From Dethiobacter alkaliphilus (GTDB lineage Bacteria; Bacillota; Dethiobacteria; DTU022; UBA8154), in contig JAENYV010000008.1 in assembly GCA_016841605.1 (NCBI GenBank), positions 38,138 through 102,137 on the forward strand: 64,000 bases of DNA. The letters are read 5' to 3'. Under the pieces are notes generated by a model. It saw only the letters and a list, made by a program, of their open reading frames with translations, was not told the origin of the DNA and did not search any database. How positions within the stretch are numbered: the stretch's first letter is position 1; each line of letters opens with the position of its first letter. Below, in pieces: positions 34,429-51,565 of the stretch. The position numbers and the translations under genes are program-made.

Positions 34429-34481
34429 CAAAATCTGGAGCCGGCAAGAGGACTTGAACCCCCAACAGGCGGATTACGATT
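34429..34481. other. attL: 53-bp direct repeat with a tRNA-Thr 3' fragment
   Basis: Identical to 55698-55750. Nt 34435-34481 equal the 3' part of the tRNA-Thr(CGT) gene including CCA, T-arm and half of the anticodon stem; after 34481 the match ends abruptly. Lesser homology continues outward to 34378 (about 104 bp in all). Confidence 0.92.
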
Positions 34482-34591
34482 TCTAAGTAGTTTTAGAAAG
34501 TATTTTGTTGCAAGTGAGTAAAAGTGCATATAATCGGTGTTTAACGAAAAAACACAGGCAAGAGAGACTACATATTGATTTATTTTATTAG

Positions 34592-34627
34592 TTTGTGTTA
34601 AATTTTTGACACAACATCTAACACAAA
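34592..34627. promoter_or_regulatory. Inverted repeat near attL
   Basis: TTTGTGTTA (34592-34600) and TAACACAAA (34619-34627) are perfect inverted arms in a non-coding end segment, 110-145 bp inside attL. This is the place expected for integrase arm or excisionase sites, but no consensus is known. Confidence 0.4.
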
Positions 34628-34659
34628 GAAAAAAGCAGTTTAATAGATATGCTTATCAC

Positions 34660-34926
34660 TCAAATCTTAATGGAAAGTTTTTTGCCTGTAGCAGCGGCTA
34701 TCTTGCCCAACAGCTTCACGGAAGGGTTATATCTTCCGCTTTCTAGCCTTGCTATAGCGTATTGTTTAACGCCGATTAGCTTAGCAAGATCTCACTGGGT
34801 AAGACCTTTTTCAGCACGTAACTTGATTAAGGCATCTTTTATTGCATACTCAAGCTCTAAAGCATCATACTCTTTTTTGACTTCAGGATCGGATAACAAA
34901 ATCTTTTTAGCTTCTTCGTGATTCAT
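34660..34926 (-). pseudogene. XRE/HigA-type HTH regulator broken by an in-frame TGA
   Basis: Read leftward from ATG 34926 (GGAG upstream), the frame codes for 88 residues interrupted at codon 45 by TGA (34794-34792). Upstream is MNHEEAKKILLSDPEVKKEY and LIKLRAEKGLTQ; downstream, in the same frame, DLAKLIGVKQYAIARLESGR and a normal end. This is a HigA-like antitoxin or repressor with a stop exactly at the first HTH helix. A CGA-to-TGA change would explain it. No HigB-type toxin lies next to it. A small hairpin (34953-34976) sits in its leader. Confidence 0.75.
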
Positions 34927-35093
34927 TTTTATTTTCTCCAATTTAACATATTCTCCCGCCAAAACGGGAGTTTTTTAATTTAAAAAAACGGGAGGGAAAA
35001 AATTACCCCAGTGGCGTGTCAGCCTACCGGAGTAAGGGGTAAAGAGTTCGTATATCGAATAAAGCACTAATGACGGAAGTATCTAAATAGAGA

Positions 35094-35273
35094 CTATGCA
35101 TCAAATTTTCCGCTTTCTCGATGAATTGCCCGAATAAGATGTAATTCGAACATCATTTCGTCATCGGGAAACTCTTGTTTAACTTCTTTAATCAATTTAT
35201 CTAAAATTTTCTGTTTAATATTATGTTTCCTGGCTAACTCTTGAGCATTAAAGTGTAAAGAGGTTTTTTCCAT
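35094..35273 (-). CDS. Small hypothetical protein, 59 aa
   Basis: ATG 35273 follows AAGGAGGG at a good distance; the longer frame to 35297 is less likely. The product is charged and helical (QELARKHNIKQKILDKLIKE, VKQEFPDDEMMFELHLIRA). I do not recognise a family. A short DNA string of this gene (about 35162-35185) recurs almost unchanged at 49642-49665 in the same element, beside the hicB gene. Confidence 0.55.
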   Translation of the reverse strand: MEKTSLHFNAQELARKHNIKQKILDKLIKEVKQEFPDDEMMFELHLIRAIHRESGKFDA

Positions 35274-35400
35274 GAATATTCCCTCCTTATCGTTCAATCT
35301 TTAGATTTACTATATTTAGTATACCATTAATTTGAATACCGAAAAGCACTTTTACAGTTTCCCATACACGGATAAGTGTATTTAAAAAAAGGAAGTGGCC

Positions 35401-35426
35401 AACTGCTCCAAGCGAGCAGTTTTTTA
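35401..35426 (+). terminator. Hairpin with T-run in the leader of the replication gene
   Basis: AACTGCTC and GAGCAGTT form an 8-bp stem with a 5-nt loop followed by TTTT. It lies 30 bp upstream of the coding start, so it may attenuate replication-gene expression. Confidence 0.6.
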
Positions 35427-35456
35427 TTTCTAATAGAAATTCTGGAGGTGACATTA

Positions 35457-36560
35457 ATGTCGAGGACTATTTTTAATCTTCTGCGAGCAGACGGAAGCAT
35501 AGTAATTAACAAAAACTTAGCTCGAAACATTGGGATCGATGAGGCAATAGTTTATTCTGAGCTCATTAGCAAATATATCTACTACGAAGAACAAAATATG
35601 TTGACCGAGGACGGCTTCTTCTTTGTTACAGTCGAAGATTTACAGCATAGCACAACGCTTTCAAAATATCAGCAGTCAAAAGCAATTTCGGAGCTTGTAA
35701 AATTAGGGCTAATTACGCACCAAAATCGCGGGGTTCCGCCTAAAAGGTATTTTAAGCTTACAATTGATAATGAATTGATAATAAAATATTTACAAAGTCC
35801 GGGTGAAAAAAATGAAAGTAAAGAAATCAAAGAAGAAAAGAATAAAGAAGTCGAAGGTTCGCAAACGTCGATAGAAGCACAAAAGTTAAAAAACTTGACT
35901 TATAAAAGTGAAAAAGCTGAACCTTCAAAAGTCAACCTACAAACGCCGATGGAATCCCAAAAGTCAAAAAACTTAACTTTTAAAAGTGAAGATACCGCCC
36001 CTTTACAAAGCTCGATGGAATCCCAAAAGTTAAAAAACTGCACTTTTAAAAGTGAAGAAACTAAACTTTCAAAAGTCAAAAAACTCGCCACTAATAATAC
36101 TAAAACTAATAATACTAAAAAACAACAACAACCGTTTCCTAAAATTTCAAGTAAAAATGCAAACGCCGGTGAGTACTCTGTCGTTGTTGCTGGTGAACCT
36201 AAAAACCAAAAACCAGGGTTGGAGCAAAAAGATCTTGTGGATGAATTGCATGGACTGGGAATTGGCAAGGAAAAAGCGGAAGAATTGATAAACACGTATT
36301 CCAGAGCCAAAATTACAAATCTAATCAACTATGTTATTTCTGATTATAAAATCGAAAAAAAAGCCGGTTTTATAATAAAAGCTCTAGAAAAAGATTATAT
36401 TTTGCCAGAAATGAACCTTCAGCAGACGGAGGATCATCTTAAAATCAAGACAGAAAAATATCTTCGAAAACTTAAAGAAGCAGAAAAAAATGCCGATTTC
36501 AAAGGCTTAACTAAATTTTTACAAATGGTTAAATCAGGGAAAATTTGGTCGATGACTTAG
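35457..36560 (+). CDS. Replication-initiator-like winged-helix protein
   Basis: A 367-aa protein from ATG 35457 (GGAGGTGACATTA upstream). The N-terminal 110 residues look like a winged helix of the DnaD/RepA-N kind (NIGIDEAIVYSELISKYIYY, LSKYQQSKAISELVKLGLIT). The middle (about 140-245) is Lys/Ser/Thr-rich with a repeated motif (S/A-Q-K-x-K-N-L/C-T-F/Y-K-S-E, three times). The C-terminus (about 270-360) is helical. Similar proteins serve as initiators or helicase-loading factors in Firmicute phages and integrative elements; the role here is inferred. Confidence 0.6.
   Translation: MSRTIFNLLRADGSIVINKNLARNIGIDEAIVYSELISKYIYYEEQNMLTEDGFFFVTVEDLQHSTTLSKYQQSKAISELVKLGLITHQNRGVPPKRYFKLTIDNELIIKYLQSPGEKNESKEIKEEKNKEVEGSQTSIEAQKLKNLTYKSEKAEPSKVNLQTPMESQKSKNLTFKSEDTAPLQSSMESQKLKNCTFKSEETKLSKVKKLATNNTKTNNTKKQQQPFPKISSKNANAGEYSVVVAGEPKNQKPGLEQKDLVDELHGLGIGKEKAEELINTYSRAKITNLINYVISDYKIEKKAGFIIKALEKDYILPEMNLQQTEDHLKIKTEKYLRKLKEAEKNADFKGLTKFLQMVKSGKIWSMT
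35874..36060 (+). repeat. Three degenerate repeats in the replication-like gene
   Basis: Copies start near 35874, 35952 and 36018, each about 39 bp and coding for QKLKNLTFKSE-like peptides in a charged linker. Spacing between copies differs (78 and 66 bp). Confidence 0.8.
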
Positions 36561-37472
36561 ATAATTATTTATTTATTGCATCCAAACGAAACATACTTTA
36601 TGATTTCGACAAAATTTTACAAAGTTCATCAAAGGAAACCCCCTTAATTTGCCGAATTTAGTTAGCACTATTATTAATACACCTAAATGTATGTAATACC
36701 AATATATTATTGTGCTCTTGCAAAAGCAATCAATGTTTTAAGCACTCAGTGTTTTCAGATGAGAACGAGTACAGAATTTTATTTGAAGAGGGACAAGCCG
36801 AAGCGTTGTTAGATTGCAATTTTAAAATTGCACCCACAGACAATTATGAGCTTCTATAAAGGAGTTAAATTTACAACAAAAAAATAAACGTTATGCATAA
36901 TTGGCTTGAATCATTTTTGGGGGGATGCGTTGATTCAGGAAATTATTATTGGGCTCAGATGCTATCAGAATAAAAGGGAATTAATATCATTTTTGAAGGC
37001 AATTAGATTAGATAGAATTAAAGTGAAAATTTTAGAGAGTCCTATTAAATAGTTTGAATTACCAGCACTTGAGAAGAATCAGGTTAATATACTCAAGGCT
37101 AACAATGGAAAGCATGATACTGCAAGGTTAGAGAATGATAATAGGAGTTGCATGTTAGTCCGCAATCCGAATCAAGCTCGAAAGCAGCTTCGCAAGTCCA
37201 AAATACCGCGCGAAAGGCAAAGCCCGCGGTATCACCGCCCCCCGCCAAAAATGATAATCTTGATTCCACGCCGCACCGGAGCAGAGCCCGGCGAAATTAT
37301 TACTTTCGGTACTTATCCGCAGACGGCAGACGGCGGACGGCGCGGACAGAACGCCGATATCCATCACGAATTAATGAAATAATACCTTCTTATTGGCCGT
37401 GATATCAGGATTGTTGCTTATAGTCTGTTGACTTATTGTCTGAATCGCATATAATTATTTTGGGGTGATCTG
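36561..37472. other. Decayed region of about 900 bp
   Basis: No intact gene. It holds fragments of a DUF2971-like gene (36720-37052) and, at 37180-37380, a patch much richer in G+C than its surroundings. In one frame that patch reads PGEIITFGTYPQTADG, reminiscent of the start of a DUF6273-type domain. These look like remains of earlier cargo. Confidence 0.5.
36720..37052 (+). pseudogene. Remnant of a DUF2971-like gene
   Basis: One frame (ending TAA 36857-36859) reads CFKHSVFSDENEYRILFEEG, and a shifted frame downstream (from about 36930 to TAG 37050) reads EIIIGLRCYQNKRELISFLK and a typical end. Together they resemble the C-terminal part of DUF2971 proteins, but a frameshift separates them and the 5' half is missing. 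The family assignment is from memory and tentative. Confidence 0.4.
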
Positions 37473-37739
37473 ATGAGTTTGCTGCAAGTGTTTTCTGCTA
37501 ACTTATGCCGTTACAGACATGAAACAGGATTGTCTTAAGAGGAGTTTGCCGATTTAGCTGGTTTACATCGAACATATATCAGCGCTCTGGAATGTGGCAA
37601 GCGAAGTATTGCCATTGATAATGTGGAGAAAATTGCGACGGCGCTTAATATTGACGCCTATTTATTGTTTATTGATACAAGTACTATATCAATAAATAAT
37701 TTAAACCTTAATACAGGGATGAGGATTGAGGAAAAATGA
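37473..37739 (+). pseudogene. Restriction-modification controller-like HTH gene with in-frame TAA
   Basis: From ATG 37473 (GGGGTGATCTG upstream) the frame codes for 88 codons, ending TGA 37737-37739, which overlaps the methyltransferase ATG (ATGA). It resembles C-protein controllers: CRYRHETGLS, then EEFADLAGLHRTYISALECG, KRSIAIDNVEKIATALNI. TAA at codon 22 (37536-37538) replaces a probable Gln codon at the start of the HTH, and a usual Arg is Cys (LECGKRS). Both fit C-to-T changes. If translation truly stops here, control of and translational coupling to the cassette would be lost. Confidence 0.8.
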
Positions 37740-39112
37740 GCAATGTTGGACTAGCAGAAAAATTCAATAACCTCACCTTGGAGTCGGAAGATCACTGGGA
37801 CTATCGTGGCACAAATAATAGCGAACGCGATTATGTTCATGGATTTTGTACGTATCCTGCAATGATGGTTCCCAAAATGCAACGTGAAATGCTCCAAGTT
37901 TGTCTTTCGGAGATGCCAATACCGCGTTCCCAATTGCTGGATCCTTTTGCTGGTTCTGGAACCATCCTCGTTGAAGGTATGCTACAAGGTCTAGATGTTG
38001 TTGGCATTGATATTAATCCTCTTGCAGTTCTGTTGTGCAAAGTTAAAACAACTATTATTAATGTGGAAATGCTTAAACAACACACTGCGCAACTTGTAAC
38101 TAATATTGAGCAAGCAAATAATATCCCAGATTATCAATTCAAAGGAATAGAAAAATGGTTTACGGCGCAAGCAATATCTGACCTAAGTAAAATAAGAACC
38201 GCCATCACGCAAGATGAGAACATTGAAATTCGGCGATTTTTTTGGGCAACATTTTGTGAAATTGTGAGAATGGTATCCAATTCTCGTGATTGCACTTACA
38301 AGCTACACATAAAAGATGCAAAAGATATTAAGACATATGATAAGGATGCGATTGCGCTTTTCAAGGAAACGCTGACTTTTAATGTTTCTAAGTATAACGA
38401 GTTTTATAGTGTGCTTAAACAACGTGGGCATATTAAGCGAGATGGAATATCATATAAAGGCTCTGTAAAAGTCATACTTAGCGATTGTATCGTTTATCTA
38501 CAACACACAAAGAAAAAGTTTGATCTCATCTTTACCTCCCCTCCGTATGGGGATAACCACACAACTGTGTCATATGGACAGTATTCGGTTATCCCTTTGA
38601 GATGGATAAACAGTAAAGACATTGATGAATCAATTAATGAAAACCTTTTGGATACACTATATGAAATCGACAATATTTCCCTTGGTGGAATGAGTTCTAA
38701 TATGTATATTACCCGGAACAAAAAGAATATTGTCAAAAAAACTGAAACGTTAAAAGAACAGATCACTACAATTACCGAGATTGCGCCAAAGCAAGTGAAT
38801 AAACTGATTTCGTTTTACAGTGATTTTGATAGTTTTCTATCTACTATATCAAAAAAGATGAAGCCTACCTCTGTATCAGTTTGGACACTTGGAAATCGCA
38901 AAGTAGCAAAGCAAGAAATTTACATGAATAAAATAATGATTGAATTAGGAACACGATATAATCTCTCTCTTTTAACCAGTTTTACAAGAAAAATTCTAAA
39001 TAAGCGAATGCCAAAGATCAATGCCTATACGGGCGACGAAAAAGACATACAGGGCACCATGACAAGAGAGCATATATTGATTTTTGTAAGGAGTGATCCT
39101 GTCAATGAGTGA
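37736..39112 (+). CDS. DNA amino-methyltransferase (N4-cytosine or N6-adenine) of the cassette
   Basis: A 458-aa SAM-dependent methyltransferase. AdoMet motif I DPFAGSG is at residues 69-75, followed by an acidic strand end IDINP (91-95). Catalytic motif IV TSPPY is at 267-271, and an upstream HGFCTYPAMMVPKM segment resembles those of m4C/m6A enzymes. Motif I precedes motif IV. The TSPPY form favours amino-methylation of C or A, and the target site is unknown. Its start overlaps the broken controller gene, and its last 8 bp overlap the GHKL protein gene, so the three-gene set is translated as a unit. No conventional endonuclease gene is next to it. Confidence 0.88.
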   Translation: MSNVGLAEKFNNLTLESEDHWDYRGTNNSERDYVHGFCTYPAMMVPKMQREMLQVCLSEMPIPRSQLLDPFAGSGTILVEGMLQGLDVVGIDINPLAVLLCKVKTTIINVEMLKQHTAQLVTNIEQANNIPDYQFKGIEKWFTAQAISDLSKIRTAITQDENIEIRRFFWATFCEIVRMVSNSRDCTYKLHIKDAKDIKTYDKDAIALFKETLTFNVSKYNEFYSVLKQRGHIKRDGISYKGSVKVILSDCIVYLQHTKKKFDLIFTSPPYGDNHTTVSYGQYSVIPLRWINSKDIDESINENLLDTLYEIDNISLGGMSSNMYITRNKKNIVKKTETLKEQITTITEIAPKQVNKLISFYSDFDSFLSTISKKMKPTSVSVWTLGNRKVAKQEIYMNKIMIELGTRYNLSLLTSFTRKILNKRMPKINAYTGDEKDIQGTMTREHILIFVRSDPVNE

Positions 39113-41639
39113 ACAATTAACATTGTTTGACCGCGAGTCAGACTATCTTGAATCTGACATCAACGGTTTTGATAAGGAATCAGCATCATTTCGTGTTCAT
39201 GCCTCTCTTATTTATAAACTCGGTGAGTCACTTATTGCTGACGAGGTTACTGCTCTATCTGAGCTTATTAAGAATGCATATGATGCCGATGCAACGATCT
39301 GTATGTTATCGATTGACTCTAATTATACAGAAACCATTGCAGAAACGGTTTGTAAGGGATTGATTGAGCTTTCAGATAATGGTTGTGGAATGGGTTTATC
39401 TACTATCATAAATGGATGGCTCACACTTTCTAATTCTCCTAAGAAAAAAATGAAGAAAGAAAAAAAGACGACCCCAAAATATCACCGTTATCCTCTGGGT
39501 GATAAAGGTTTAGGCCGTCTTTCGGTTCAAAAGCTTGGCAGAAATATGCAGATGATTACGAAATCTGCAACCTCAAAGATCGAGTACACTGTTACTATTC
39601 CTTGGGGCGATTTTCTTAAGAATACTACGATCGATCAGATTCCTGTCAAGATTGAAAAAGCAGAAATAAATAATAACAAATCATACACAAAAATTGTGAT
39701 TAAGGATCTTATTGATAACGAGCGTTGGGCGAGCAAAGCTCAAATTGATATTTTAACAAACAGCATAAGCAAAATTGTGTCGCCTTTTCGAAGTAAAGAA
39801 AATACCTTTAAAGTTGTTGCAAAAGTCAACGGGCAAGAAATTGAGACTATCGGCAAAATATTTGATGAACTCCTTGCTTCGGCGCGCGCAAAACATACAA
39901 TAAAATATTCCGGTGGGAAAGCAGTAATTATATCAGAATATAAAAGGTCATTTTTCTATAACAGAGACATCCTGCAAAAGATTACTTCAGGTGAATTTAC
40001 GCTAAGCGAGACTGTAATTAATGATTTTTTACGGATAAATCAAAAGCCTCTGTCAAATGTATTTCCTAAACGCGACGGCGGAAATGTAATTGCTTCTGAG
40101 GATGAATGCCTGTTTGAAGATATTCAGCTTTCTAAAAAAACATCAGGTGATTCCTTACAAGCAAGTGACCCCGGTGATTTCGAATGCGAAATCTATGAAT
40201 ATTCATTAGAGAAAAAGTATCTATATTATCTTTATGAGAATATCAGCTATGATGGATTAATTGACCGTGATGAATATCGCGGTTTTATCTCTCGTTTTCA
40301 TGGTGTTAAGGTGGTACGCGACGGTTTTGTTGTCCAGGGGTTTGGTGAAGGAGACGGAGGCGACTGGCTTGGATTATCTTCCTCGTCAAAGACTACTGGA
40401 TATTTCTTTGATTTACGAAATGATAGCGTAATTGGATGCGTTTATCTTACCGGAAATTGCAATGCCGCATTGAAAGAAACAACTAACAGAGAAGGATTTG
40501 TTGAGGATGAATATTATCATTCATTTAAGAAAATCCTTGACGATTCTATTAGGAGAATAAATCGCAACCGTAAAAAGCTCAACGATGCAATGAAAGCCTA
40601 TATTATAGAAGCCATATCTATCTCCAGTAATATTGGAGATGAAGTTTTAAGTTTTAAGCCTACAGTGGCCAAAATACGTGAAGAAATGGCAAGCACAACT
40701 CCCCTTATAGCAGAGGGGCAAAGGCATATTACCTCTGCATTAGATAACTATCGTGTTGCAAAAAAAGCAATTGATTCTTCGCCGTTTGTACTTCCAGAAG
40801 CGACTAAAAATATAGATGATTTATATCATAATATTACTGATGTTTCGAGCGATTATACACGTCTTCTACAAGAACGAGACTCACTTAGCAAAAAACTTGA
40901 TGCGATTAATTATGATTTTGAGAAGATTAACGAAAGACTTCAGGATTTATTTGAATTAGCTGGACTTGGAATCTCTGTGGAACTATTTGCGCATGAGTTT
41001 GATTCTTCAATTAGAAGCGTAAAAGCCAAGAACCAACAAGTTATTGACTCGAAAGCAACGGAAACAGTTGATGACCTTATTAAGCATATAAATTATATTA
41101 CTTTTTCGCTAGATGCTCTAAGAAAGCAAATGTCATATTTCAATCCTGGGCTTAAGTTTGTAAGAGCTGAGAAACAGGTATTTGACATCAGCGACTTCTT
41201 AGAATCGCATAGATCATTTTATAAGGAAAGATGCGAAAAAAAGAATATAGATTTTAATGTAAATGTGCTGACGGATTTTAAGGTGCGTATAAATCGTGGA
41301 ATGCTAAACCAAGTATTTGATAATTTATTCAGCAATTCAGAATACTGGCTTGACTTTTCAGTGCGTAAAGGCCTGATTAAAAACAAAAAGTATAATATTG
41401 ATGTTTCAGAACGTGGCATTATTGTAGTATGGGATAATGGCATTGGTGTAAGCAGGGATATTGAAACACGGTTATTTGAACCATTTGAAAGCAAAAAAAA
41501 GGATGGTCGAGGCTTAGGGTTATATATTGCTGCCAGCAATCTTAAGTACAACTCTGCTATGATCAGACTACTTGGCGAAAGGAATAATGAGGACAATCTA
41601 TATAAATTCGCAATTGATCTTTCACAGTTAATGCAGTGA
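39105..41639 (+). CDS. Dual GHKL protein: MORC/Hsp90-like ATPase plus histidine-kinase core
   Basis: An 844-aa cytoplasmic protein from ATG 39105 (AAGGAG upstream; GTG 39093 is an alternative). The N-terminal ATPase shows N-box ELIKNAYDAD (E53, N57, D60), G1 LSDNGCGMG (D91) and G2 GDKGLGRLS (132-140), the pattern of MutL/Hsp90/MORC ATPases. Residues about 520-615 are coiled coil. A DHp-like helix carries LFAHEFDSSI with His630, a candidate phospho-acceptor. The C-terminal kinase domain has N-box DNLFSNSEYW (N740, N744), G1 WDNGIGV (D777), F-box LFEPFES and G2 GRGLGLYIA. No membrane segment or PAS/GAF sensor is present. It should phosphorylate the receiver protein encoded 22 bp downstream. Confidence 0.85.
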   Translation: MSEQLTLFDRESDYLESDINGFDKESASFRVHASLIYKLGESLIADEVTALSELIKNAYDADATICMLSIDSNYTETIAETVCKGLIELSDNGCGMGLSTIINGWLTLSNSPKKKMKKEKKTTPKYHRYPLGDKGLGRLSVQKLGRNMQMITKSATSKIEYTVTIPWGDFLKNTTIDQIPVKIEKAEINNNKSYTKIVIKDLIDNERWASKAQIDILTNSISKIVSPFRSKENTFKVVAKVNGQEIETIGKIFDELLASARAKHTIKYSGGKAVIISEYKRSFFYNRDILQKITSGEFTLSETVINDFLRINQKPLSNVFPKRDGGNVIASEDECLFEDIQLSKKTSGDSLQASDPGDFECEIYEYSLEKKYLYYLYENISYDGLIDRDEYRGFISRFHGVKVVRDGFVVQGFGEGDGGDWLGLSSSSKTTGYFFDLRNDSVIGCVYLTGNCNAALKETTNREGFVEDEYYHSFKKILDDSIRRINRNRKKLNDAMKAYIIEAISISSNIGDEVLSFKPTVAKIREEMASTTPLIAEGQRHITSALDNYRVAKKAIDSSPFVLPEATKNIDDLYHNITDVSSDYTRLLQERDSLSKKLDAINYDFEKINERLQDLFELAGLGISVELFAHEFDSSIRSVKAKNQQVIDSKATETVDDLIKHINYITFSLDALRKQMSYFNPGLKFVRAEKQVFDISDFLESHRSFYKERCEKKNIDFNVNVLTDFKVRINRGMLNQVFDNLFSNSEYWLDFSVRKGLIKNKKYNIDVSERGIIVVWDNGIGVSRDIETRLFEPFESKKKDGRGLGLYIAASNLKYNSAMIRLLGERNNEDNLYKFAIDLSQLMQ

Positions 41640-41661
41640 AGCATGGGGTGGGGATAGAGAC

Positions 41662-43389
41662 ATGATTAAAACGTTGTTTTCTATGCATAATATTAAGTAT
41701 GTTATAAGCGTCGATGATTGTTATTATGCGCCAAAATATGATGAAATGAAAGCACAAGTATATAGTGAGATATGTTGTTGCGTTGATCCATTTAGAACAT
41801 ATCTAACTGAAGCCGGTAAATCGCAACAAATAGACGAGATTGATAGTTTCGCAGCGCTCGGTGCGGACGCAGATGCACTGGTTACTTCACTCCTTGATAC
41901 TCTTACTGAATATGAATTGGAGGAATGTTTTAAAATTGCTGGAAATACAGATAGAACGTACTCTGTAGATCAGAATGGCATTATCGCATTTTTAGATGAT
42001 TTAAAAGCCCAAGGGTGTATCGAGCAATACTTGACACTATCAACTGTAGCCGAAGCAGCTACGCTTGATTGCGAAATAGCCGGTATTACGAAGGGCTGCA
42101 TATTATGGTTGCTGGACAAAAATTTTGAAAGAGTCGGCGAGTCGGCAAATGCTGGCATTGAACTAGCGAAGACCCTGACGCAACGAAATAATGGGCAAGA
42201 TAATTATGTTTATATTTTATCTGCTATAGAATCAGACTCCGATTTAAGTGAAGATGAAATAGAGGCCGAATTTGATTGCTTGCTGTCAGCAATGTGCGAT
42301 CTTGAAACATCGTCATTTATTTATTACGTTAATAAACAACGTATTCTATCAAAAAAAAATGATAGAATTGCAAAAAGTCTGGCGCAAGGATTTAAACGGA
42401 AAGCGAGTTACGAACTGTTCAAAGCTTATGGAAAATGCCTGAATACAAGTATAGAATCAGCCACAAAAAGAATTTTGGGGATCAAGCAGAAGACTTTAAA
42501 TTATCTATTTAATGAAAAAGTAGAGCGCAAAGGTGAGTCATGTATAGATTTTATGGCAAGGCTTGTACAGATATTGCAAACAGAAGAATATAACAAAGCT
42601 CTTGCTTATGAGCACAATACTATTGCTGAAAAAATGAAATATTATGAGGAACTGTGTAATGCAATAAAAGATGCTACTGGAAACGCAACTGAAATGACGC
42701 CGATATTAAAAGAACTCCGAGATATAGAATTATATAACCGATATATCAATTTACAGTTCATTGAACTATCAACAGGAGATATTTTTCTTATTAATTCTTC
42801 ATATTACTTACTAGTATCACAAGCGTGTGATACATATTTGCGTCCAGATGGCTGTCGGAAATTAAAAAATGCGATTCTTTTAGAAATCGTGTCAGAGGGC
42901 AAATCTGAATTTAATTATCCCCTGTCATGTTTTAGGGGTTTAAAAAAACCAATGGTCATGTATCAAAACCAAATTAGCATACCATTTGACATTTTGGATT
43001 TGTGCGTCATAAACGAAAATGGACAAGCAAGCATTGATATGTCCTATTTTCAAGACATAGAGGATGTTAAACTAAAGAATCATTCTAAGAATTTTAACAA
43101 AAGATTAAAGATAATCTGTGTACACTTAAAGGCGATAAATGAAAGCAAATCAACGATTGAACGTCTTATCGGTAAAGATGCCGAGATTTCTGAAGAGGCT
43201 GCAAGAGCTGCATATGCAACACTTCTTAGCGAAGATTCTTTCTTAAAAAATTACACAATCAGCAAAAATAAGCTATGTTATCCCGTACAACGAATATGTA
43301 GGTTAGATGAATTGACAACCATAGACATTGTTAAAGATTATGGAATCGTTTTGTCTCGAATAGGACATCCATTTGATTTTCTGAAATAG
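41662..43389 (+). CDS. Receiver-domain protein with long insertion and unknown C-terminal domain
   Basis: A 575-aa protein. Its first 230 residues keep every key position of a response-regulator receiver: YVISVDDCYY (D18, D19), LWLLDKNF (D152, phospho-acceptor), YVYILSA (S187) and YYVNKQ (K225). About 110 mostly helical residues are inserted between the first acidic pair and D152. Residues about 235-575 match no output domain I know; no HTH is seen, and an LLVSQACDTYLRPDG segment near residue 385 is the most striking. By position it is the partner of the GHKL kinase and may be the effector. It is the last gene before a truncated group II intron 40 bp downstream. Confidence 0.75.
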   Translation: MIKTLFSMHNIKYVISVDDCYYAPKYDEMKAQVYSEICCCVDPFRTYLTEAGKSQQIDEIDSFAALGADADALVTSLLDTLTEYELEECFKIAGNTDRTYSVDQNGIIAFLDDLKAQGCIEQYLTLSTVAEAATLDCEIAGITKGCILWLLDKNFERVGESANAGIELAKTLTQRNNGQDNYVYILSAIESDSDLSEDEIEAEFDCLLSAMCDLETSSFIYYVNKQRILSKKNDRIAKSLAQGFKRKASYELFKAYGKCLNTSIESATKRILGIKQKTLNYLFNEKVERKGESCIDFMARLVQILQTEEYNKALAYEHNTIAEKMKYYEELCNAIKDATGNATEMTPILKELRDIELYNRYINLQFIELSTGDIFLINSSYYLLVSQACDTYLRPDGCRKLKNAILLEIVSEGKSEFNYPLSCFRGLKKPMVMYQNQISIPFDILDLCVINENGQASIDMSYFQDIEDVKLKNHSKNFNKRLKIICVHLKAINESKSTIERLIGKDAEISEEAARAAYATLLSEDSFLKNYTISKNKLCYPVQRICRLDELTTIDIVKDYGIVLSRIGHPFDFLK

Positions 43390-43428
43390 ATTCCATTATT
43401 TTAGTCTAACATGTAGACTTCCATTATC

Positions 43429-44121
43429 GTGCGCCGGATGACGGCATGTATTTTAACAGGTGGAAATCCTGTCTGGTAAGGTTTAAGCTGAACCACCAGT
43501 AGCGAGTCATGAGTTCAATGCAGTAATGTATTGGACTAAGCGTTGACAGTCAGGTGGCAGGTATGAAATGTGATTGAACCCCGAAATGAAGATTAGTGAA
43601 ATGGCCGACATTCTGATAATAATGGAAGGCAACACATTACTAGCGTTAAAAGTGAGCGAAATAATGCATTTCCGGGGTCGAAGAGCCATACATGTCATAC
43701 AATGGATACATGTTAACCCGGGAGGCCCTGCTGTTTCTCAACATAGTAAATTTATATGTTGAGTATGATGGACAACTAGAAATGGAGGAAGTCAAAGGGA
43801 TGGCAGGGAGTCGGACAGCCACATAGTACTGATGAACGTGGGTAATGCCACGGGAGGAAAGGTGCGAAGTGATGAAAATCACTGCTGCGTAATACCATAT
43901 CTTTAAGGAAACATTATCTGTACACAGAGACGGGAGTAATAATGGAAACGAAATTAAAGAGAATATCAGAGATATCTCGAAAGAACCCGAAGGAGGTATT
44001 TACATCAATCGGGCATCTTATCAACAAAGAGATGCTAGAAATCTGCCATAAGGAAATGGACAGGAATAAGATTGAGGAGGAGATAGCCTTATCGCTGAAT
44101 CTTAGTCTTCCTCACTCATAA
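43429..44121 (+). mobile_element. Truncated group II intron
   Basis: It begins with the group II 5' signature GTGCGCC at 43429 and continues with about 500 bp of structured RNA sequence, including the typical AGGGAGTCGGACAGCC block near 43790 and GGGTAATGCCACGGGAGG near 43840. An intron-encoded protein start follows at 43942. The frame stops after 59 codons, and neither the rest of the reverse transcriptase nor domains V and VI are visible. The intron is therefore a dead 5' fragment. It sits just after the receiver gene, so a fourth cassette gene may have been lost there. Confidence 0.75.
43942..44121 (+). pseudogene. N-terminal fragment of a group II intron reverse transcriptase
   Basis: 59 codons starting METKLKRISEISRKNPKEVF, the usual N-terminus of LtrA-like intron proteins, up to about NKEMLEICHKEMD. 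It then diverges into an unrelated short tail and a stop. All catalytic RT motifs are absent. Confidence 0.8.
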
Positions 44122-44704
44122 TTAAACCTTGGAGTAGCTTGTATCTTGAGTATTTCCTCAAATTTGGTTAAATTACGTAGAAAAAGCTTCATCTTGATTG
44201 GGCGGACAAATGGCAACCAAAAACATACATAAGACGATAAATAGTAATCGGTAACCGGAAACCAATTTCTGTTTGCTTAACTAATAGCGATGCCCATTCA
44301 CTAATGGACAACATGTTCTTTTCGGAGTATCCCGAATTATGTAAATCTGATTATTACATACTGAAACAAATTAAAATTATTGAAAAAATAATTTATGGCA
44401 AACCAATATATAAAAATAGATTTAAAACAATTTTCTTCAATAGGAATTGAATAAAACTCATAAAATAGACGGGAGTGCCGATTATATCGGCACTCCCGTC
44501 TATTTTAGCCGTAAAAAGTTAATACAGATGAAACTTGAGTTTTCTTTTCTGGTTGTATGTAAACTGGTTTAGAAAACTGTTCGCCGGGTTCACGGGGTGT
44601 AAAAATTACTGCCCCATTTTCTTTTTCCTCTCAATTATCTGTTCCTTCAGCCAAAAGGTCTTCAGTAATTTAGAGCTGGTGCAAATTTTAAGGAGGTGAG
44701 AAGA
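44122..44704. other. Non-coding stretch with a perfect hairpin
   Basis: No gene is supported. The main feature is the 45-nt hairpin at 44462-44506. The last 20 bp carry the ribosome site of the next gene (AAGGAGGTGAG). Confidence 0.5.
44462..44506. terminator. Perfect 21-bp inverted repeat (terminator)
   Basis: AAAATAGACGGGAGTGCCGAT and its exact complement flank a 3-nt loop, with A- and T-rich ends. It is a strong bidirectional terminator that isolates the cassette and intron from the recombinase and mob genes. Confidence 0.85.
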
Positions 44705-45235
44705 ATGCAGACAGTAGAGCCTATTAGAGATCCGAAGAAGCTGAATGCGATAAAAAAATATTTTCGTGGCAAGAACTTGAGGGATTACGTTTTGTTTGTC
44801 CTGGGGATAAATACAGGGCTAAGGAACGGGGATCTGAAATCATTAAAAATTAGCGATGTCCAGAACGGCACCGGAAAAGTCCGTGACAGAATATACATCC
44901 ACGAGAATAAGACCGGCAAGGAGAAAACATTCCGGATCAATGAGACCGCACAGAAGGCACTGAAAGAATATCTTGCTACACGGCCAGGAGTAGAGCCGGA
45001 AGAACTGCTCTTTCCCAGCCGGGAGGGTGGCCGAGAGCTAACCAGTCAGCAGATTAGAAATATCATCCTCAGCGCAGCCAGGGCGGTCGGAGTTACAGAG
45101 CGGATCGGGGCGACAACGTTAAAGAAAACTTTTGGCTACCATGCACGAAAGAAAGGTGTAGCAGTGGAGATCTTAATGCGTATTTTTAATCACTTTTGGC
45201 CGGGAGTAACGCAAAGGTATATTGGGATTTCTTAA
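44705..45235 (+). CDS. Short tyrosine-recombinase-like protein with altered active site
   Basis: A 176-aa catalytic-domain-only member of the phage integrase family, from ATG 44705 (AAGGAGGTGAG upstream). Arg40 (NTGLRNGDL), a beta-hairpin Lys (K69 or K72), His163 (FNHFWPG) and the nucleophile Tyr172 (RYIGI) are present. The HxLR box, normally H-T-L-R-K-T-F, reads T137-T-L-K140-K-T-F, so both the His and the second catalytic Arg are replaced. Recombination activity is therefore doubtful; it may bind DNA only. Length fits the small plasmid/ICE subfamily, which lacks the N-terminal arm domain. Confidence 0.85.
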   Translation: MQTVEPIRDPKKLNAIKKYFRGKNLRDYVLFVLGINTGLRNGDLKSLKISDVQNGTGKVRDRIYIHENKTGKEKTFRINETAQKALKEYLATRPGVEPEELLFPSREGGRELTSQQIRNIILSAARAVGVTERIGATTLKKTFGYHARKKGVAVEILMRIFNHFWPGVTQRYIGIS

Positions 45236-45594
45236 GAGGAAATAGAAGATATTTACATGGACCTGAATATTTAGCTTTACTTATCTTACTCCCAAAAATG
45301 GAAATAGAGTATTGACAAAAAAAGTAATCATAGAAAATATTTTCTAATTACGAAAACTGGCAGCGGAAAAAAGTGAACCAATTTCGTTCAGCCAGTTTTT
45401 TCCTGTTTTCAGAAGTCGAGAGATTTCCCATAGCCCTTTCTGCTGATGTAATCTCTATCTTTTTACCTGGCAAGATTCGCCTTCGGCTATCCGTTTTTTG
45501 CTGACGCTCAAACGGAAGCCTCCTGGCCAAGTCTTGCTGGTGGCTTCGCCCCCAGACCCCCAAGGTGTAAATTCCAAGATATGGAGGTGATATA
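45236..45594. other. Candidate oriT region upstream of mobC
   Basis: This 359-bp gene-free segment precedes mobC. It includes a nested hairpin (AACTGGC 45355-45361 with GCCAGTT 45391-45397; inner TGAAC/GTTCA) followed by T-run, then a G+C-rich block with GGTGGCTTCGCCCCCAGACC at about 45539-45558. Relaxase genes usually have their origin of transfer in such a position. I cannot point to the nick site. Confidence 0.4.
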
Positions 45595-45945
45595 GTGAGT
45601 GAAAATCGTCGCAGGCAATGCCAAATTTTGGTCCGTTTTTCCCAGGAAGAACTATCCATAATCAAGGTAAAAGCAGAGAAGGCAGGACTAACTGAGGCTA
45701 GTTTTCTCCGCGAATCTGCCCTGGGGAAAAAGATAGTAGCACCTTCCTTTTCCCAAGAAGAAGAAAAAATTATAAAGCGCCAAATCAAAGGTATCGGAAA
45801 CAACCTTAATCAGTTAACGAAGTTAGCCCATGAAAGAAAAATTAAAGGGGACGGTCTCGTTGGGAAAATTGATTGCTTCAAGGAGGTGACAGAAAAACTA
45901 TGGCAACTATTATGCTCGGCAATACAAAGCGAGCGGGGGCATTGA
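45595..45945 (+). CDS. mobC: MobC-like relaxosome accessory protein
   Basis: A 116-aa protein from GTG 45595 (ATGGAGGTGATATA upstream). It has a ribbon-helix-helix-like start (ILVRFSQEELSIIKVKAEKA) and the MobC core (IKGIGNNLNQLTKLAHE). MobC proteins bind oriT and help the relaxase open the strands. It overlaps the relaxase gene by 46 bp. Confidence 0.88.
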   Translation: MSENRRRQCQILVRFSQEELSIIKVKAEKAGLTEASFLRESALGKKIVAPSFSQEEEKIIKRQIKGIGNNLNQLTKLAHERKIKGDGLVGKIDCFKEVTEKLWQLLCSAIQSERGH

Positions 45946-47288
45946 TCAACTATTGCAAAAACAAAACTCAGAATATCGGAGAGAGAGACGGTTATAACAT
46001 AGACCCGGAACGAGCACAAGCGCAGATGCTTGTTACCCGCCAGATGTATCAGAAAAACGACGGTATACAGGCTCATCATGTCATCCAAAGTTTTGTTCCT
46101 GGGGAGATTCGGGACCCCCAAGAAGCAAACCGCATCGGGCGTGAACTTGCGGAGAGAATAGCTCCCGGCTTCGAAGTTGCGATATATACACATTCAGATC
46201 GAGATCACATACATAATCATCTCGTGATTAACAGTGTAAATTTTGAAACTGGGAAAAAATATCATTCAGACCGGAAACAATTAAACCGAATCAGAGATGA
46301 AAGCAACCGGCTTTGCCAGGAGCAAGGGTTAGCCAAGATTCAGAGTCATGCGAAAGAAAATTTAACAATGGCCGAATACAAACTGGCCGAGCGAGGCCAG
46401 AGGCTTTGGAAAGATGAACTCAGAACAAGCATAGAAACAGCAAAGGAAAAGACTTCAACTCTTCAGGAGATGAAGTCTTTTTTAAAGAAGACATACAACA
46501 TTGAAATGAAAATCCAAGAGAAAAACATTAGTTTTCTACATCCGGAAAAACAGAAATATTGCCGGGGTAAGACCTTGGGAAACAGCTACACGAAGGAGGC
46601 TATAGAGAATGACTATCGAGAGGGAGCGAGCCAGGTTAGAGCCGTTGAGTACGGAGAGCAGCGAAGAGACGACATCCGAGAAAGAATCCATTTCCGGCAG
46701 GCTGATGGAAGCTCTTATCCAAATCAACAGCGAGCAGACGATTATCCGCAAAGAAGTCGAGCAGGCGATGAGCCAGCTCCTGAGCTTAGCCGAGGCAGCG
46801 AACAAGGCAGAGAAAGAGCAGTTGAATTTAGTGCAGAGCGTGAAAAAATTGCTGGAAGAAGTCAGAGCGGACTTGAACGAGACGAAGCAACAAAGAGAAT
46901 TGCGGGGGGTAGAGTACATGCAAGCGAACCGGGACACGGCGGCCCGGCTGGTGGAAATTACTCAAAAATTGGAATACATAAAGAAGCCGGTCGAGAAACC
47001 GCCGCTGAAAGAAGTGCTAATGAGAACAGGAATTATCGCGATGTCGAGCATTTTGGGCGGGACAATCATGTTCCTGGTGTTCCTACTCCTGCAAGCGTAG
47101 TTAATCAATCTTGGAAAGGACTTATTAGAGCTATCGAAAAAGAACGTGCTCAGGCTGAATTACAAGCCGAACGAATGAAGATAAGCACAGCGAAGAAAGA
47201 AGAAGTACAGAAAAAACTTCCAGAAAAAGCAAAAGAAAAAATTAGAAATAGATTAGACAGCGAAGAAGAGCTTGAACCGGAAAGGTAA
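45900..47288 (+). CDS. MOBP-type relaxase (MobA/VirD2 family)
   Basis: A 462-aa relaxase from ATG 45900, preceded by AGGAGGTGAC inside mobC. The nucleophile is probably Tyr18 (ALINYCKNK). The metal-binding triad appears as H98-S-D and HIHNH (H103, H105, H107), followed by LVINSVNFETGKKYH. It should nick oriT and lead the strand into a helper's secretion channel. The C-terminal half, from about residue 235, is unusually rich in Arg, Glu, Gly and Ser with little hydrophobic pattern, because a second gene is written in another frame over the same DNA (46609-47100). Confidence 0.9.
   Translation: MATIMLGNTKRAGALINYCKNKTQNIGERDGYNIDPERAQAQMLVTRQMYQKNDGIQAHHVIQSFVPGEIRDPQEANRIGRELAERIAPGFEVAIYTHSDRDHIHNHLVINSVNFETGKKYHSDRKQLNRIRDESNRLCQEQGLAKIQSHAKENLTMAEYKLAERGQRLWKDELRTSIETAKEKTSTLQEMKSFLKKTYNIEMKIQEKNISFLHPEKQKYCRGKTLGNSYTKEAIENDYREGASQVRAVEYGEQRRDDIRERIHFRQADGSSYPNQQRADDYPQRSRAGDEPAPELSRGSEQGRERAVEFSAEREKIAGRSQSGLERDEATKRIAGGRVHASEPGHGGPAGGNYSKIGIHKEAGRETAAERSANENRNYRDVEHFGRDNHVPGVPTPASVVNQSWKGLIRAIEKERAQAELQAERMKISTAKKEEVQKKLPEKAKEKIRNRLDSEEELEPER
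46609..47100 (+). CDS. Overprinted MobB/MbeB-like coiled-coil membrane protein
   Basis: 163 codons lying wholly inside the relaxase gene in the +1 frame. ATG 46609 has AAGGAGG nine bases upstream, an ideal site. The product is helical with a long coiled coil (IRKEVEQAMSQLLSLAEAAN, VKKLLEEVRADLNETKQQ) and a C-terminal transmembrane segment (IIAMSSILGGTIMFLVFLLL). ColE1-type plasmids have the same arrangement, with mbeB/mbeD inside mbeA, where the small proteins aid relaxase stability or membrane contact. The hydrophobic tail and the ribosome site show that this is not a chance frame. Confidence 0.8.
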   Translation: MTIERERARLEPLSTESSEETTSEKESISGRLMEALIQINSEQTIIRKEVEQAMSQLLSLAEAANKAEKEQLNLVQSVKKLLEEVRADLNETKQQRELRGVEYMQANRDTAARLVEITQKLEYIKKPVEKPPLKEVLMRTGIIAMSSILGGTIMFLVFLLLQA

Positions 47289-47685
47289 ACCCTATCGCCT
47301 TTTATCGAAGTCCCCTCCTGCCTCCTCAACGGGGGGAAGCCCCGTCTTCCAACTTATACATTATTCGACCGGCGTAGGGCGGACGCTGCGCCCTGCTTTA
47401 AAAAAGAGCGCAGGGCACAGCACCCTTCCCATCGCCTGATTTCGTCATCGCAGCTAATCGGGGCATTGTCACTCTTGGCAGCCGGGAAAATCGTTTGCAC
47501 CTGTGGCGCAGAACCACCGCCACAAGTGCTTACCATTCGGGCGCATCGTAGCCGTCCAGGAAAAAGAACCTGGCCGTCCACCATGCGCCAAGTAAACGTC
47601 GTCATCGGGATTACAAAGATTAATTAGTTTCAAAGGCATTGAGCTAGTCACTTTTAAAGGCATTTTTAAAGAAACCCTATTCCCC

Positions 47686-47706
47686 AACCCCCTCAAGGGG
47701 GTTTTT
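47686..47706 (+). terminator. Terminator downstream of the mob genes
   Basis: AACCCCC and GGGGGTT with a 4-nt loop, followed by TTT, about 400 bp after the relaxase stop. Confidence 0.7.
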
Positions 47707-47747
47707 AGCAGGGGGGAGGCAAAGTCAAAAACAAAGGCAATAGCTGG

Positions 47748-47776
47748 AGCAATTCCTTACGGAATTGCTTTTCTTT
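47748..47776 (+). terminator. Second hairpin with T-rich tail
   Basis: AGCAATTCC and GGAATTGCT with loop TTAC are followed by TTTTCTTTTT. Confidence 0.7.
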
Positions 47777-48090
47777 TTGCAAGAGGGATAGGAGAGTTTA
47801 CGCCCTCCGCTCCCTTGTCAAGGCCAAGCCGGGTGAGCATATCCTCCCTCGCTCTTGAGATTTTGCCAAAAAACGCTTCGCAAAGGCAAAAACTCCTCCG
47901 CTCAGTCCGGTATCCCTCCCCCGGTGGCGCAAAAAGCGTGCGCCAGCCTTGACTGCGCTCCCTGCGGGCTAGGAGAAAAGAATCAGCCCTCTTGCAAAAA
48001 AAAAGTTTTTTCAGGGATGAAAGGATTAAGGATCGCACCCCCTAATCCCCCAGTCCCTGGGAGACTTTAGCAAATAAAGGAGGAAAACAA

Positions 48091-48300
48091 ATGAAAAAGG
48101 ATCTAATTTTTGAAAACGACAACGGGAGAACGTATTCGATTATCGCCGGTAATGACCATTTTGCATTTTTGCGGGATATGGACCGCGGCAAATATGTCAT
48201 TGCGAGAGGGCTGAACTGGGAGACAAAATGCTGGGCTGGGGGGAGCTATTTCAACGAAGACGAGTTTGGAATTGCAGTTAAAGCTTTCATGGAGAGTTGA
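48091..48300 (+). CDS. Small hypothetical protein, 69 aa
   Basis: ATG 48091 follows AAAGGAGGAAAACAA. The product (LIFENDNGRTYSIIAGNDHF, YVIARGLNWETKCWAGGSYF) looks like a small soluble beta-rich protein. Its family is unknown to me. It leads a run of three genes on the same strand that end at a terminator at 49.4 kb. Confidence 0.7.
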   Translation: MKKDLIFENDNGRTYSIIAGNDHFAFLRDMDRGKYVIARGLNWETKCWAGGSYFNEDEFGIAVKAFMES

Positions 48301-48367
48301 AAGATGGGGGAGAACAGGTTCTTAGTTACCGAAGCTGTTATCTCCAAAAGAAAGGAGATGGAAGATA

Positions 48368-48982
48368 GTGTCAAACGTAGTGAGGGCAGGAAATGAGCTA
48401 CTTACCATATTTCACGAAGCAAACAAAAAATACTTTGGAGGCAAGCTGCCAACTCCGGAGATAACAATTCAGGCAGCCGGACGGAAAGCAGCTCTGGGAT
48501 GGATTACAACGGCTAAAATCTGGAAAAACGATAACGGCGGCAATTATGAAATCAACATCTGCGCTGAATACCTTGCCAGGGAATTGCCCGAGGTAGTGGC
48601 GACGTTGCTCCATGAAATGGCTCACTTTTGGAATATCGTTCACAACATCAAGGACACTTCAAGCCATCAGTATCATAACAAGAATTTTAAAAGGGCGGCA
48701 GAGCTGGCCGGGCTGGAAGTGCTTAAAACAGAAAAGTTTGGTTATGCCAACACGAAGCCCACGGCAGAGACCATCAGCTTTATGGAGTCAATAAATATAA
48801 ACGATTCAGTGTTCCGGACATTTCGAGCAGGCGGCCTGCTGGACGAGGACGGCAGGCCAAGGAAAAAGAAAGGCAGCGGTAAGATGAAGAAGTGGAGTTG
48901 CGGATGCACGAACGTTCGCTGCGCTGTTGAGCTCGTGGCGGTCTGCGAAAAGTGTGGTAATAGTTTTGAGCTTGTAGAGTAA
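48368..48982 (+). CDS. SprT-like zinc metallopeptidase
   Basis: A 204-aa protein from GTG 48368 (AAAGGAGATGG upstream). The SprT core shows the HExxH site HEMAHFWN near residue 80 with a third His in QYHNKNFKRAA, then a C-terminal zinc ribbon (CGCTNVRC and CEKCGNSF). SprT/Spartan-like proteins are linked to cleavage of DNA-protein crosslinks, which a relaxase covalently joined to DNA resembles. A role in clearing such adducts on this element is speculation. Confidence 0.85.
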   Translation: MSNVVRAGNELLTIFHEANKKYFGGKLPTPEITIQAAGRKAALGWITTAKIWKNDNGGNYEINICAEYLARELPEVVATLLHEMAHFWNIVHNIKDTSSHQYHNKNFKRAAELAGLEVLKTEKFGYANTKPTAETISFMESININDSVFRTFRAGGLLDEDGRPRKKKGSGKMKKWSCGCTNVRCAVELVAVCEKCGNSFELVE

Positions 48983-49020
48983 AGTTGTAGTTTAAACCAC
49001 AAAAAGGAGATGCTGAGAAA

Positions 49021-49368
49021 ATGGATTTTGAGAAAAATTTTCTGGAAGAAAATGAAAACATGGATGTTGATGTGCTCAAGCTTATGGAAGATTTTTTAAA
49101 TTTGGTTACGCAGAAAGTGCTCTCTGATCCGATGAAGTTGAGCGACTTACTCAAGGATAAGCAAGAAAAATTAGCGGCTGCACGGAAAAAAATCCTGGCT
49201 ACAACAAACTTAGAAATATTTGAAGAATACGAGGCTTTGCGAAATGAGTGCGATAAAAAAATTTATAAGGAGTTTGTCAAACATGGTTTGGCTGGCCGCA
49301 AGGCTATGAAAAAAATGCTGCAAAAGGCCGAGGACGCTCCGACCAGGCAAGTCTCAAGCGCCCTCTAA
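49021..49368 (+). CDS. Hypothetical helical protein, 115 aa
   Basis: ATG 49021 follows AAAAAGGAGATGCTGAGAAA. The product is acidic at the N-terminus and basic at the C-terminus, all helical (LLKDKQEKLAAARKKILATT, HGLAGRKAMKKMLQKAEDA). I do not recognise the family. It is the last gene of the small operon with SprT; a terminator follows. Confidence 0.65.
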   Translation: MDFEKNFLEENENMDVDVLKLMEDFLNLVTQKVLSDPMKLSDLLKDKQEKLAAARKKILATTNLEIFEEYEALRNECDKKIYKEFVKHGLAGRKAMKKMLQKAEDAPTRQVSSAL

Positions 49369-49374
49369 AAAACA

Positions 49375-49402
49375 CCCAAGATGGATTAAATTCCATCTTG
49401 GG
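49375..49402 (+). terminator. Hairpin after the SprT operon
   Basis: CCCAAGATGGA and TCCATCTTGGG are perfectly complementary around a 6-nt loop; no strong T-run follows. Confidence 0.6.
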
Positions 49403-49700
49403 GACATTATATCACATCCAAAGAGTCTGGAGTAAAAAAATGTGGGGCGCAATTTTTGCTAGGCTTTTTTTGCAATGGTTACCTGTTTAATATTTGTGAC
49501 GAATGTGTGAGGGCGTGTAGAGCAATTTTACTGTCGAGGGAATTGTAGTTATAACACAAAGCTGTGCACGCCTCTGCACAATTCAAAAATTCTGTTTTGT
49601 GGAAGAGCGTTTAGTTGCACCAAGCAGTTTTCTTATTTCATCATAGGGAAACTCTTGTTTTACTTTATTGCTTGGTTCAAAACATGTATCTTTCAGTTCC
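49403..49700. other. Gap downstream of hicB with a relic open frame
   Basis: On the minus strand a frame without a start codon reads VKQEFPYDEIRKLLGATKR, echoing VKQEFPDDE of the small protein at 35094-35273; the DNA at 49642-49665 and 35162-35185 is almost the same. This is probably a fragment of a second copy. Nothing else is seen. Confidence 0.4.
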
Positions 49701-50090
49701 TTATTTAGCGCGACGAGATTTACCGGACGGATGCCCGACACTGCGGGCTAGTTGGTAGTTAATATACTGATTGAGGCTGACGTTTTCCTCTTTGGCTTTC
49801 ACAACCAAAGTACGGTGAAGAGACTTGGGCATACGAATATTAAATTTGCCTGAGTATTCTTCTCTTACGGTTGGCTCGGGAATTTTTTTTCCATCTTGCA
49901 GGGCAATATCAAGCCAACCCCTTTTTGCATCTTGTATCATTTTATATGCCTCTTCCAGAGTTTGCCCCTGGCTGATGCATCCGGGAAGCTCCGGGATTTC
50001 AATGGCATAGCCGCCTTCTTCGGCGGGGTAGAGAACTATCTTGTAAGGTAGTCCGAGGTAATATTTAAGGTCTTTCTTGAGCATTTTCAT
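49701..50090 (-). CDS. hicB: HicB family antitoxin
   Basis: A 129-aa antitoxin. The N-terminal half-RNase-H-like fold shows YYLGLPYKIVLYPAEEGGYA, IEIPELPGCISQGQTLEEA and IQDAKRGWL. The C-terminus has a ribbon-helix-helix DNA-binding part (FNIRMPKSLHRTLVVKAKEE, NVSLNQYINYQLAR). It neutralises HicA and represses the operon. Its ATG overlaps the hicA stop (ATGA), giving the usual toxin-first order. Confidence 0.95.
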   Translation of the reverse strand: MKMLKKDLKYYLGLPYKIVLYPAEEGGYAIEIPELPGCISQGQTLEEAYKMIQDAKRGWLDIALQDGKKIPEPTVREEYSGKFNIRMPKSLHRTLVVKAKEENVSLNQYINYQLARSVGHPSGKSRRAK

Positions 50091-50329
50091 TCTTCACCCA
50101 TCCTTTCAAGGAGTTTTATCGCAGCTACAGCATAAGTGGTTAATATGTATGGTTGGCGGTAAGGGATAGATATCTGTAAAGAGCCTTTAGTGTAATAATA
50201 ATGGCTTGAGCCGCTTCTTGGCTGCCTTCTTGTAAAGCCTGACCTAGTCAGGATTTTATCCAGTTCGTCAAATCTAACCTGTTTGGGGTTGTTCTTTATT
50301 TTTTGTAGGAGTTTTTCAAGTTTACTCAC
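50087..50329 (-). CDS. hicA: HicA family mRNA interferase toxin
   Basis: An 80-aa toxin with a dsRNA-binding-like fold. The catalytic His lies in RQPRSGSSHYYY, and SLQISIPYRQPYILTTYAVA completes the family pattern. The chain is longer than the most compact HicA proteins because of an N-terminal helix. It cleaves mRNA when free. The start is GTG 50329 with AGAGGTG upstream. Together with hicB it probably stabilises the element in the host. Confidence 0.92.
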   Translation of the reverse strand: MSKLEKLLQKIKNNPKQVRFDELDKILTRSGFTRRQPRSGSSHYYYTKGSLQISIPYRQPYILTTYAVAAIKLLERMGEE

Positions 50330-50348
50330 CGATTACACCTCTGACATA

Positions 50349-51475: not shown

Positions 51476-51565
51476 GTTGAGATTTAACAATTAAAAAAGA
51501 GTGTAAGAAAAGCGGGGTTCGATATAGATCCTGCTTTTTTATTTCAGAAGGAGGAAAACATACTC

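Follow-up and report, generated by a model that had tools for sequence, protein, structure and literature searches.

A MORC-like ATPase joined to a histidine-kinase core, with a probable receiver partner, in a methyltransferase cassette of Dethiobacter alkaliphilus

A single chain of 844 amino acids, encoded on the forward strand at 39105..41639 of the window (the 64,000-nucleotide stretch of contig JAENYV010000008.1 that was analysed), combines a MORC/Hsp90-type ATPase, a coiled coil, a DHp element with His630 and a HATPase_c domain. Its gene lies in an operon between a DNA methyltransferase gene and a gene for a response-regulator-like protein, and it is very likely that this methyltransferase cassette contains a sensor kinase and its cognate receiver. 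The three genes are cargo of an island inserted at a tRNA-Thr gene. The first-pass annotation had described the kinase as a lone chain of unusual architecture. Neither point held, as the gene belongs to a conserved cassette of methyltransferase, kinase and receiver, and a 2021 paper (PMC8011034) had already described the architecture. The partner genes on both sides of the kinase had been overlooked in that annotation.

Architecture and constraint of the kinase

The reading frame of the kinase is intact, with an ATG at 39105 and a stop at 41639. Its N-terminal part comprises a GHL ATPase (about residues 25-250) and a transducer or middle domain (about 251-468), both within 39177..40508 on the forward strand, as delimited by Pfam HATPase_c_3, Foldseek and conservation. 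There follow, on the same strand, a coiled-coil connector (about residues 469-620; 40509..40964), drawn from predicted helices and dN/dS, and a DHp hairpin (about residues 621-685; 40965..41159), in which the His630 codon occupies 40992-40994. The chain ends in the kinase ATPase, or CA, domain (about residues 686-844; 41160..41636, forward strand), which is recognised as HATPase_c and resembles HK853 by both sequence and fold.

Two Pfam models match the chain above their curated cut-offs, namely HATPase_c_3 at residues 49-195 (5.4e-14) and HATPase_c at 734-811 (7.8e-12). The HEF_HK model (PF19191) matches at 621-663, spanning His630, below its cut-off (18.6 versus 24.1 bits; E 0.0026), and sub-threshold matches of 17.1-20.8 bits occur at the same place in close relatives. 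The H, N, G1, F and G2 boxes of a histidine kinase are all found, together with a conserved His in the DHp hairpin. In addition, a GHKL ATPase with its catalytic Glu (E53, present in 71/71 kinases) is followed by an S5-like transducer, which is the arrangement of MORC/paraMORC proteins. The earlier claim that the chain holds two intact GHKL ATPase modules, each of its own kind, is upheld by Pfam, conservation and Foldseek, and every residue cited in the first-pass annotation sits where it had been placed: E53, N57, D91 and GDKGLG at 132-137 in the N-terminal module, His630 in the DHp, and N740, D777, LFEPFES at 790-796 and GRGLGLYIA at 801-809 in the C-terminal module. The chain is also soluble, as had been proposed: it has neither a classical sensor domain nor a transmembrane segment, hydropathy averaged over 19 residues peaking at 0.95. 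When the source genome was searched with the kinase, only generic kinase matches were obtained besides the gene itself.

The AlphaFold2 model of the kinase, built from 40 alignment rows, is of modest confidence (pLDDT 78, pTM 0.51). It has the GHKL ATPase and transducer up front, then long helices at 469-509, 518-558 and 564-648, the last of which holds His630, then, at 655-682, the other DHp helix, and finally the kinase ATPase domain. A predicted fold lacking a DHp around His630 would have spoken against a histidine kinase; the model contains one, with helices that contain and flank this residue. Against the PDB, Foldseek retrieved SMCHD1, MORC2 (including MORC2-DNA entries), MORC3 and TRAP1/Hsp90 over the first ~500 residues (E 1e-12 to 1e-10), and HK853, including complexes with RR468, over ~245 C-terminal residues (E ~3e-10); the Foldseek table gives aligned lengths and not residue ranges, and it is through the sequence matches that the entries are assigned to one half or the other.

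It is highly improbable that the kinase is a type II restriction enzyme like BbrUII/HgiDII. In NCBIfam, the N-terminal ATPase is indeed closest to BbrUII/HgiDII (1e-18), and it is also matched by a PADLOC restriction-enzyme model (3e-12). Nevertheless, the NF050001 match is limited to residues 30-248 and reaches 67.2 bits against a cut-off of 550, the PADLOC restriction-enzyme models match the kinase in its ATPase only, and the C-terminal half consists of a kinase core instead of a nuclease. The N-terminal ATPase domain is related to that of these enzymes, and there is no likeness beyond it.

An alignment with 71 relatives, in which mean column identity is 17%, leaves the catalytic positions unchanged. 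E53, N57, D91, G132, G135, G137, H630, N740, N744, G801, G803 and G805 are invariant in all 71 kinases, as are D420, W421 and R462 in the transducer/middle domain. His630 is directly followed by E or D in 69/71, and position 777 carries D in 66 kinases and N in the other 5. This conservation is far more than expected by chance and shows that His630, the presumed phospho-acceptor, is under constraint together with the two ATP sites. The Desulfosporosinus lacus copy, which is 89% identical, served as the reference for dN/dS. The ratio is 0.12 for the whole kinase, 0.10 for the DHp and 0.06 for the kinase domain, while the coiled-coil connector, at 0.25, is the fastest-evolving part of the chain; for the neighbours, it is 0.16 (methyltransferase) and 0.28 (receiver protein). 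That the chain is decayed or inactive, with one ATPase or both having lost function, finds some support in a broken XRE-like neighbouring gene but is very unlikely in view of the intact catalytic residues and of dN/dS values of 0.06-0.28 over the three genes and the kinase domains.

The receiver-like partner and the methyltransferase

The gene downstream begins 22 bp after the kinase and encodes a response-regulator-like protein of 575 amino acids (41662..43389, forward strand). Its residues 1-232 (41662..42357, forward strand) form a receiver domain with a helical insert, recognised by profile-profile comparison: against ten canonical receivers of the same genome, the probability is 95.6-97.3%, while a control with the C-terminal domain gives 0.1%. 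The acidic pair, Asp, S/T and Lys appear in receiver order, as D18/D19 within VDD at 17-19, the presumed phospho-acceptor D152 (codon 42115-42117), S187 and K225. Across 65 partners of divergent kinases, only Asp152 (65/65) and the initiator Met are invariant. No Pfam domain is recognised in the window partner, Response_reg_2 (PF19192) matches neither it nor the 65 partners at E 0.01, and Response_reg (PF00072) matches 9/65 directly. A scan for Response_reg_2 across 398 genomes of the phylum has no match, and as its controls are silent too, it carries no weight on absence.

The receiver protein ends in a domain with conserved Cys and Asp motifs (about residues 361-575; 42742..43386, forward strand), presumed to be the output domain from its conservation and from its replacement elsewhere by HNH or metallo-beta-lactamase-fold genes. 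Its motifs are GDIF, QACD at 387-390 and R566, and C389 is conserved in 47/51 ungapped partner rows. No nuclease or effector signature was found in this domain by Pfam, PDB sequences or a significant Foldseek match; the model of the whole protein (pLDDT 87) has no significant structural match by Foldseek, and a tblastn search of plasmids with the receiver protein returned nothing. A PemK/MazF fold was considered for the C-terminal domain on account of GDIF and a weak Foldseek match (MazF, E 1.4, probability 0.47), and was rejected on profile comparison with PemK, where the hhalign probability is 0.1-0.2%.

Upstream, the methyltransferase gene (458 amino acids; 37736..39112, forward strand) overlaps the kinase start by 8 bp. 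It is identified by PADLOC MTase_II (8e-82), Pfam N6_N4_Mtase and invariant motifs. DPFAGSGT precedes SPPYGD; the enzyme is SPPY-type, of the amino-methyltransferase kind, and probably produces m4C or m6A. Before it lies the remnant of a controller-protein-like gene of the XRE HTH type (37473..37739, forward strand), interrupted by an in-frame stop at 37536-37538, whose end overlaps the methyltransferase start.

Such a controller-like gene, of which an open homologue stands ahead of the methyltransferase in another locus (L003), would suit a two-component system that governs how the restriction-modification locus is expressed or how active it is, in which the receiver would be a regulator and not an effector. 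Bellieny-Rabelo et al. 2021 (PMC8011034) proposed this role for the family. It is nevertheless unlikely for the present cassette: the receiver protein has no recognised DNA-binding domain, loci of this clade lack a separate nuclease gene that could be controlled, and the regulator-like gene of the window is broken by a stop.

Family patterns, mobility and proposed mechanism

On a tree of the 71 kinases, methyltransferase class (SPPY, NPPY or C5) changes 3 times, the minimum, against a mean of 22.4 after shuffling; classes were assigned by sequence motifs, with 19 unclassed rows excluded and five rows assigned to SPPY by hand. The window kinase falls within an SPPY clade of ten rows, whose local support is 99%. 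Because the number of changes is at its minimum, the kinase appears to be matched to a particular kind of modification; the co-inheritance of methyltransferase and kinase could also be plain linkage. In all 12 cases of bare receivers (≤228 aa), the gene that directly follows encodes an HNH (9) or a metallo-beta-lactamase-fold (3) protein, while such a gene follows a longer partner in 0/53. Thus, the Cys-Asp domain of the longer receivers looks like a replaceable output part. This pattern may reflect only about two independent evolutionary events, and possibly no more than that, because few clades hold bare receivers. Some longer partners in the NPPY clade precede genes without identification. 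Both the tracking of class by the kinase and the rule for bare receivers go beyond the contents of PMC8011034, as far as the portion of that paper drawn on here extends.

The cassette resides in an integrated element of 21,269 bp (34429..55750) marked by direct repeats, an integrase and a relaxase. Its ends are perfect 53-bp direct repeats (34429-34481 and 55698-55750) in the 3′ end of tRNA-Thr; the integrase adjoins the tRNA, and the interior holds a relaxase and NikA/MobC pair. GC content is 35-37% in the element, against 45-52% over the greater part of the window's first 24 kb. Lachnospiraceae, Oscillospiraceae and Desulfosporosinus have the three genes in the same order, and so do virus-labelled contigs and one plasmid each of Hymenobacter and Rhizobium. 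A scan of viral contigs yielded 65 loci with an alignment as query and none with a single sequence. The cassette is absent from all the other genomes searched, that is, 97 in the class and 397 in the phylum sample. In other phyla, it likewise comes with no recognisable nuclease gene. PADLOC does not list it as a system, and the only full-length matches there are to generic type II methyltransferase models.

The preferred account, with a probability of about 0.5, is a cytoplasmic two-component system, built into the methyltransferase cassette, that would guard the host against invading DNA. The methyltransferase would mark the host's own DNA, and the MORC-like N-terminal ATPase of the kinase would dimerise upon ATP binding and clamp or scan DNA. 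On unmodified, and hence foreign, DNA, the ATPase cycle would shift the coiled coil and the DHp/CA core; the kinase would then autophosphorylate at His630 and hand the phosphoryl group on to Asp152 in the adjacent receiver protein. The C-terminal Cys-Asp domain of the latter would then be freed to act, perhaps as a nuclease, as a toxic effector or as a recruiter of one. The computed evidence establishes the domains, the conserved catalytic residues, the receiver, the operon and its mobility, and the association of methyltransferase class with kinase lineage. The direction of signalling and the anti-invader purpose are part of the conjecture, as are DNA sensing by the N-terminal half, phosphotransfer and the nature of the effector.

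A different cue of infection, such as nucleotide pools, a phage protein or DNA ends, might instead be sensed, with the receiver triggering abortive infection and the methyltransferase as an auxiliary or passenger. NTP sensing by HATPase_c_3 is suggested in PMC8011034, and GHKL ATPases have been proposed as effector controllers in other defence proteins, for instance VcSduA. This alternative has a low probability, as the whole clade retains the methyltransferase, whose class follows the kinase tree. The methylation-sensing account may be generalised, more tentatively, to a phosphorelay-licensed form of restriction, in which a MORC-like clamp-kinase would read methylation and a His-Asp transfer to an interchangeable effector would take the place of direct recognition by a nuclease. 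The effectors concerned would be a fused domain, an HNH protein or a metallo-beta-lactamase-fold protein.

Relation to known systems

Eukaryotic MORC proteins silence methylated or foreign DNA by a mechanism that is incompletely understood. A bacterial fusion of a MORC-like ATPase with a kinase would give phospho-His and phospho-Asp as a biochemical read-out of the signal that the ATPase perceives, and it would link two-component signalling with restriction-modification, a connection that is so far a proposal in the openly licensed literature, where no experiment on the HEF_HK/Response_reg_2 family was found.

Proteins with HATPase_c_3, HEF_HK and HATPase_c, encoded with a response-regulator-like partner beside restriction-modification genes, were described by Bellieny-Rabelo et al. 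2021 (PMC8011034). In that paper, the loci mostly carry C5 methyltransferases, often with Vsr, and N6/N4 methyltransferases also occur; the members are mostly Proteobacteria, and HATPase_c_3 is suggested to take the sensor's place, which is also what the first-pass annotation considered for the N-terminal ATPase. The present cassette shares with these pairs a soluble chain with an N-terminal HATPase_c_3, a DHp and a C-terminal HATPase_c, an adjacent receiver-like protein with a conserved Asp, and an adjacent restriction-modification gene, here the methyltransferase that overlaps the kinase start. By contrast, HEF_HK is below its cut-off and Response_reg_2 unmatched, the methyltransferase is of the SPPY type and not the dominant C5, neither Vsr nor a nuclease gene is present, and the partner carries a large Cys-Asp domain. 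Since kinase and partner fail both named Pfam cut-offs, the pair is filed as a divergent relative that would work in the manner of that system, and not as a certified member; the cassette is a divergent variant of the 2021 system.

MORC/paraMORC ATPases in restriction-modification loci, for which DNA looping was proposed, were described by Iyer et al. 2008 (PMC2292703). These proteins and SMCHD1, which give the best fold matches, resemble the kinase in having a GHKL ATPase and a transducer-like module by DNA methyltransferase genes. They are fused to a nuclease, to TIR or to nothing extra, whereas here the fusion is to a complete histidine-kinase core. HK853-RR468, a canonical soluble pair of histidine kinase and response regulator, has the same DHp and CA with H, N, G1, F and G2 boxes, and a partner with the acidic pair, Asp, S/T and Lys. 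In the present pair, however, an ATPase machine replaces the sensor domain, and the receiver is fused to an extra domain with no recognised DNA-binding part. Finally, in the GHKL-Shedu protein VcSduA (paraMORC3 type; PMC12137116), a GHKL ATPase is likewise proposed as the gate of a defensive effector, but the effector there is a fused nuclease, whereas the cassette described here apparently uses a phosphorelay to a second protein.

Boundaries and gene content of the integrated element

The integrated element in the window comprises 21,269 bp and is delimited by perfect 53-bp direct repeats (34429-34481 and 55698-55750), whose source is the 3′ end of tRNA-Thr(CGT). Within it are found an integrase (54359-55726), a relaxase (45873-47288) and a NikA/MobC gene (45595-45945). 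A short ORF of 179 aa (44696-45235), the second of the tyrosine-recombinase family in the element, is possibly truncated. In addition, an inverted repeat whose arms pair perfectly over a 20-bp stem lies 3′ of the kinase cassette (44461-44507); it is either terminator-like or a palindromic element of another kind.

Upstream gene and kinase connector

Directly ahead of the methyltransferase, an XRE-type HTH gene (37473-37739) is broken by an in-frame stop (37536-37538). The Desulfosporosinus lacus copy looks broken as well, and an uninterrupted homologue precedes the methyltransferase in the related locus L003. In the kinase, the coiled-coil connector (40509-40964) evolves fastest, with a dN/dS of 0.25 versus 0.06-0.16 in the rest, as expected for a signalling linker.

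Receiver partners in related loci

In three related loci, the gene next after a bare receiver encodes a protein of approximately 335 aa with a metallo-beta-lactamase fold (L074, 5731-6735; L085, 8718-9716; L094, 8794-9813); an HNH gene holds this slot in nine others. Public annotation names the receiver partner of Hymenobacter monticola (L042, 9569-11365) 'cytochrome P450', a label that is most likely wrong.
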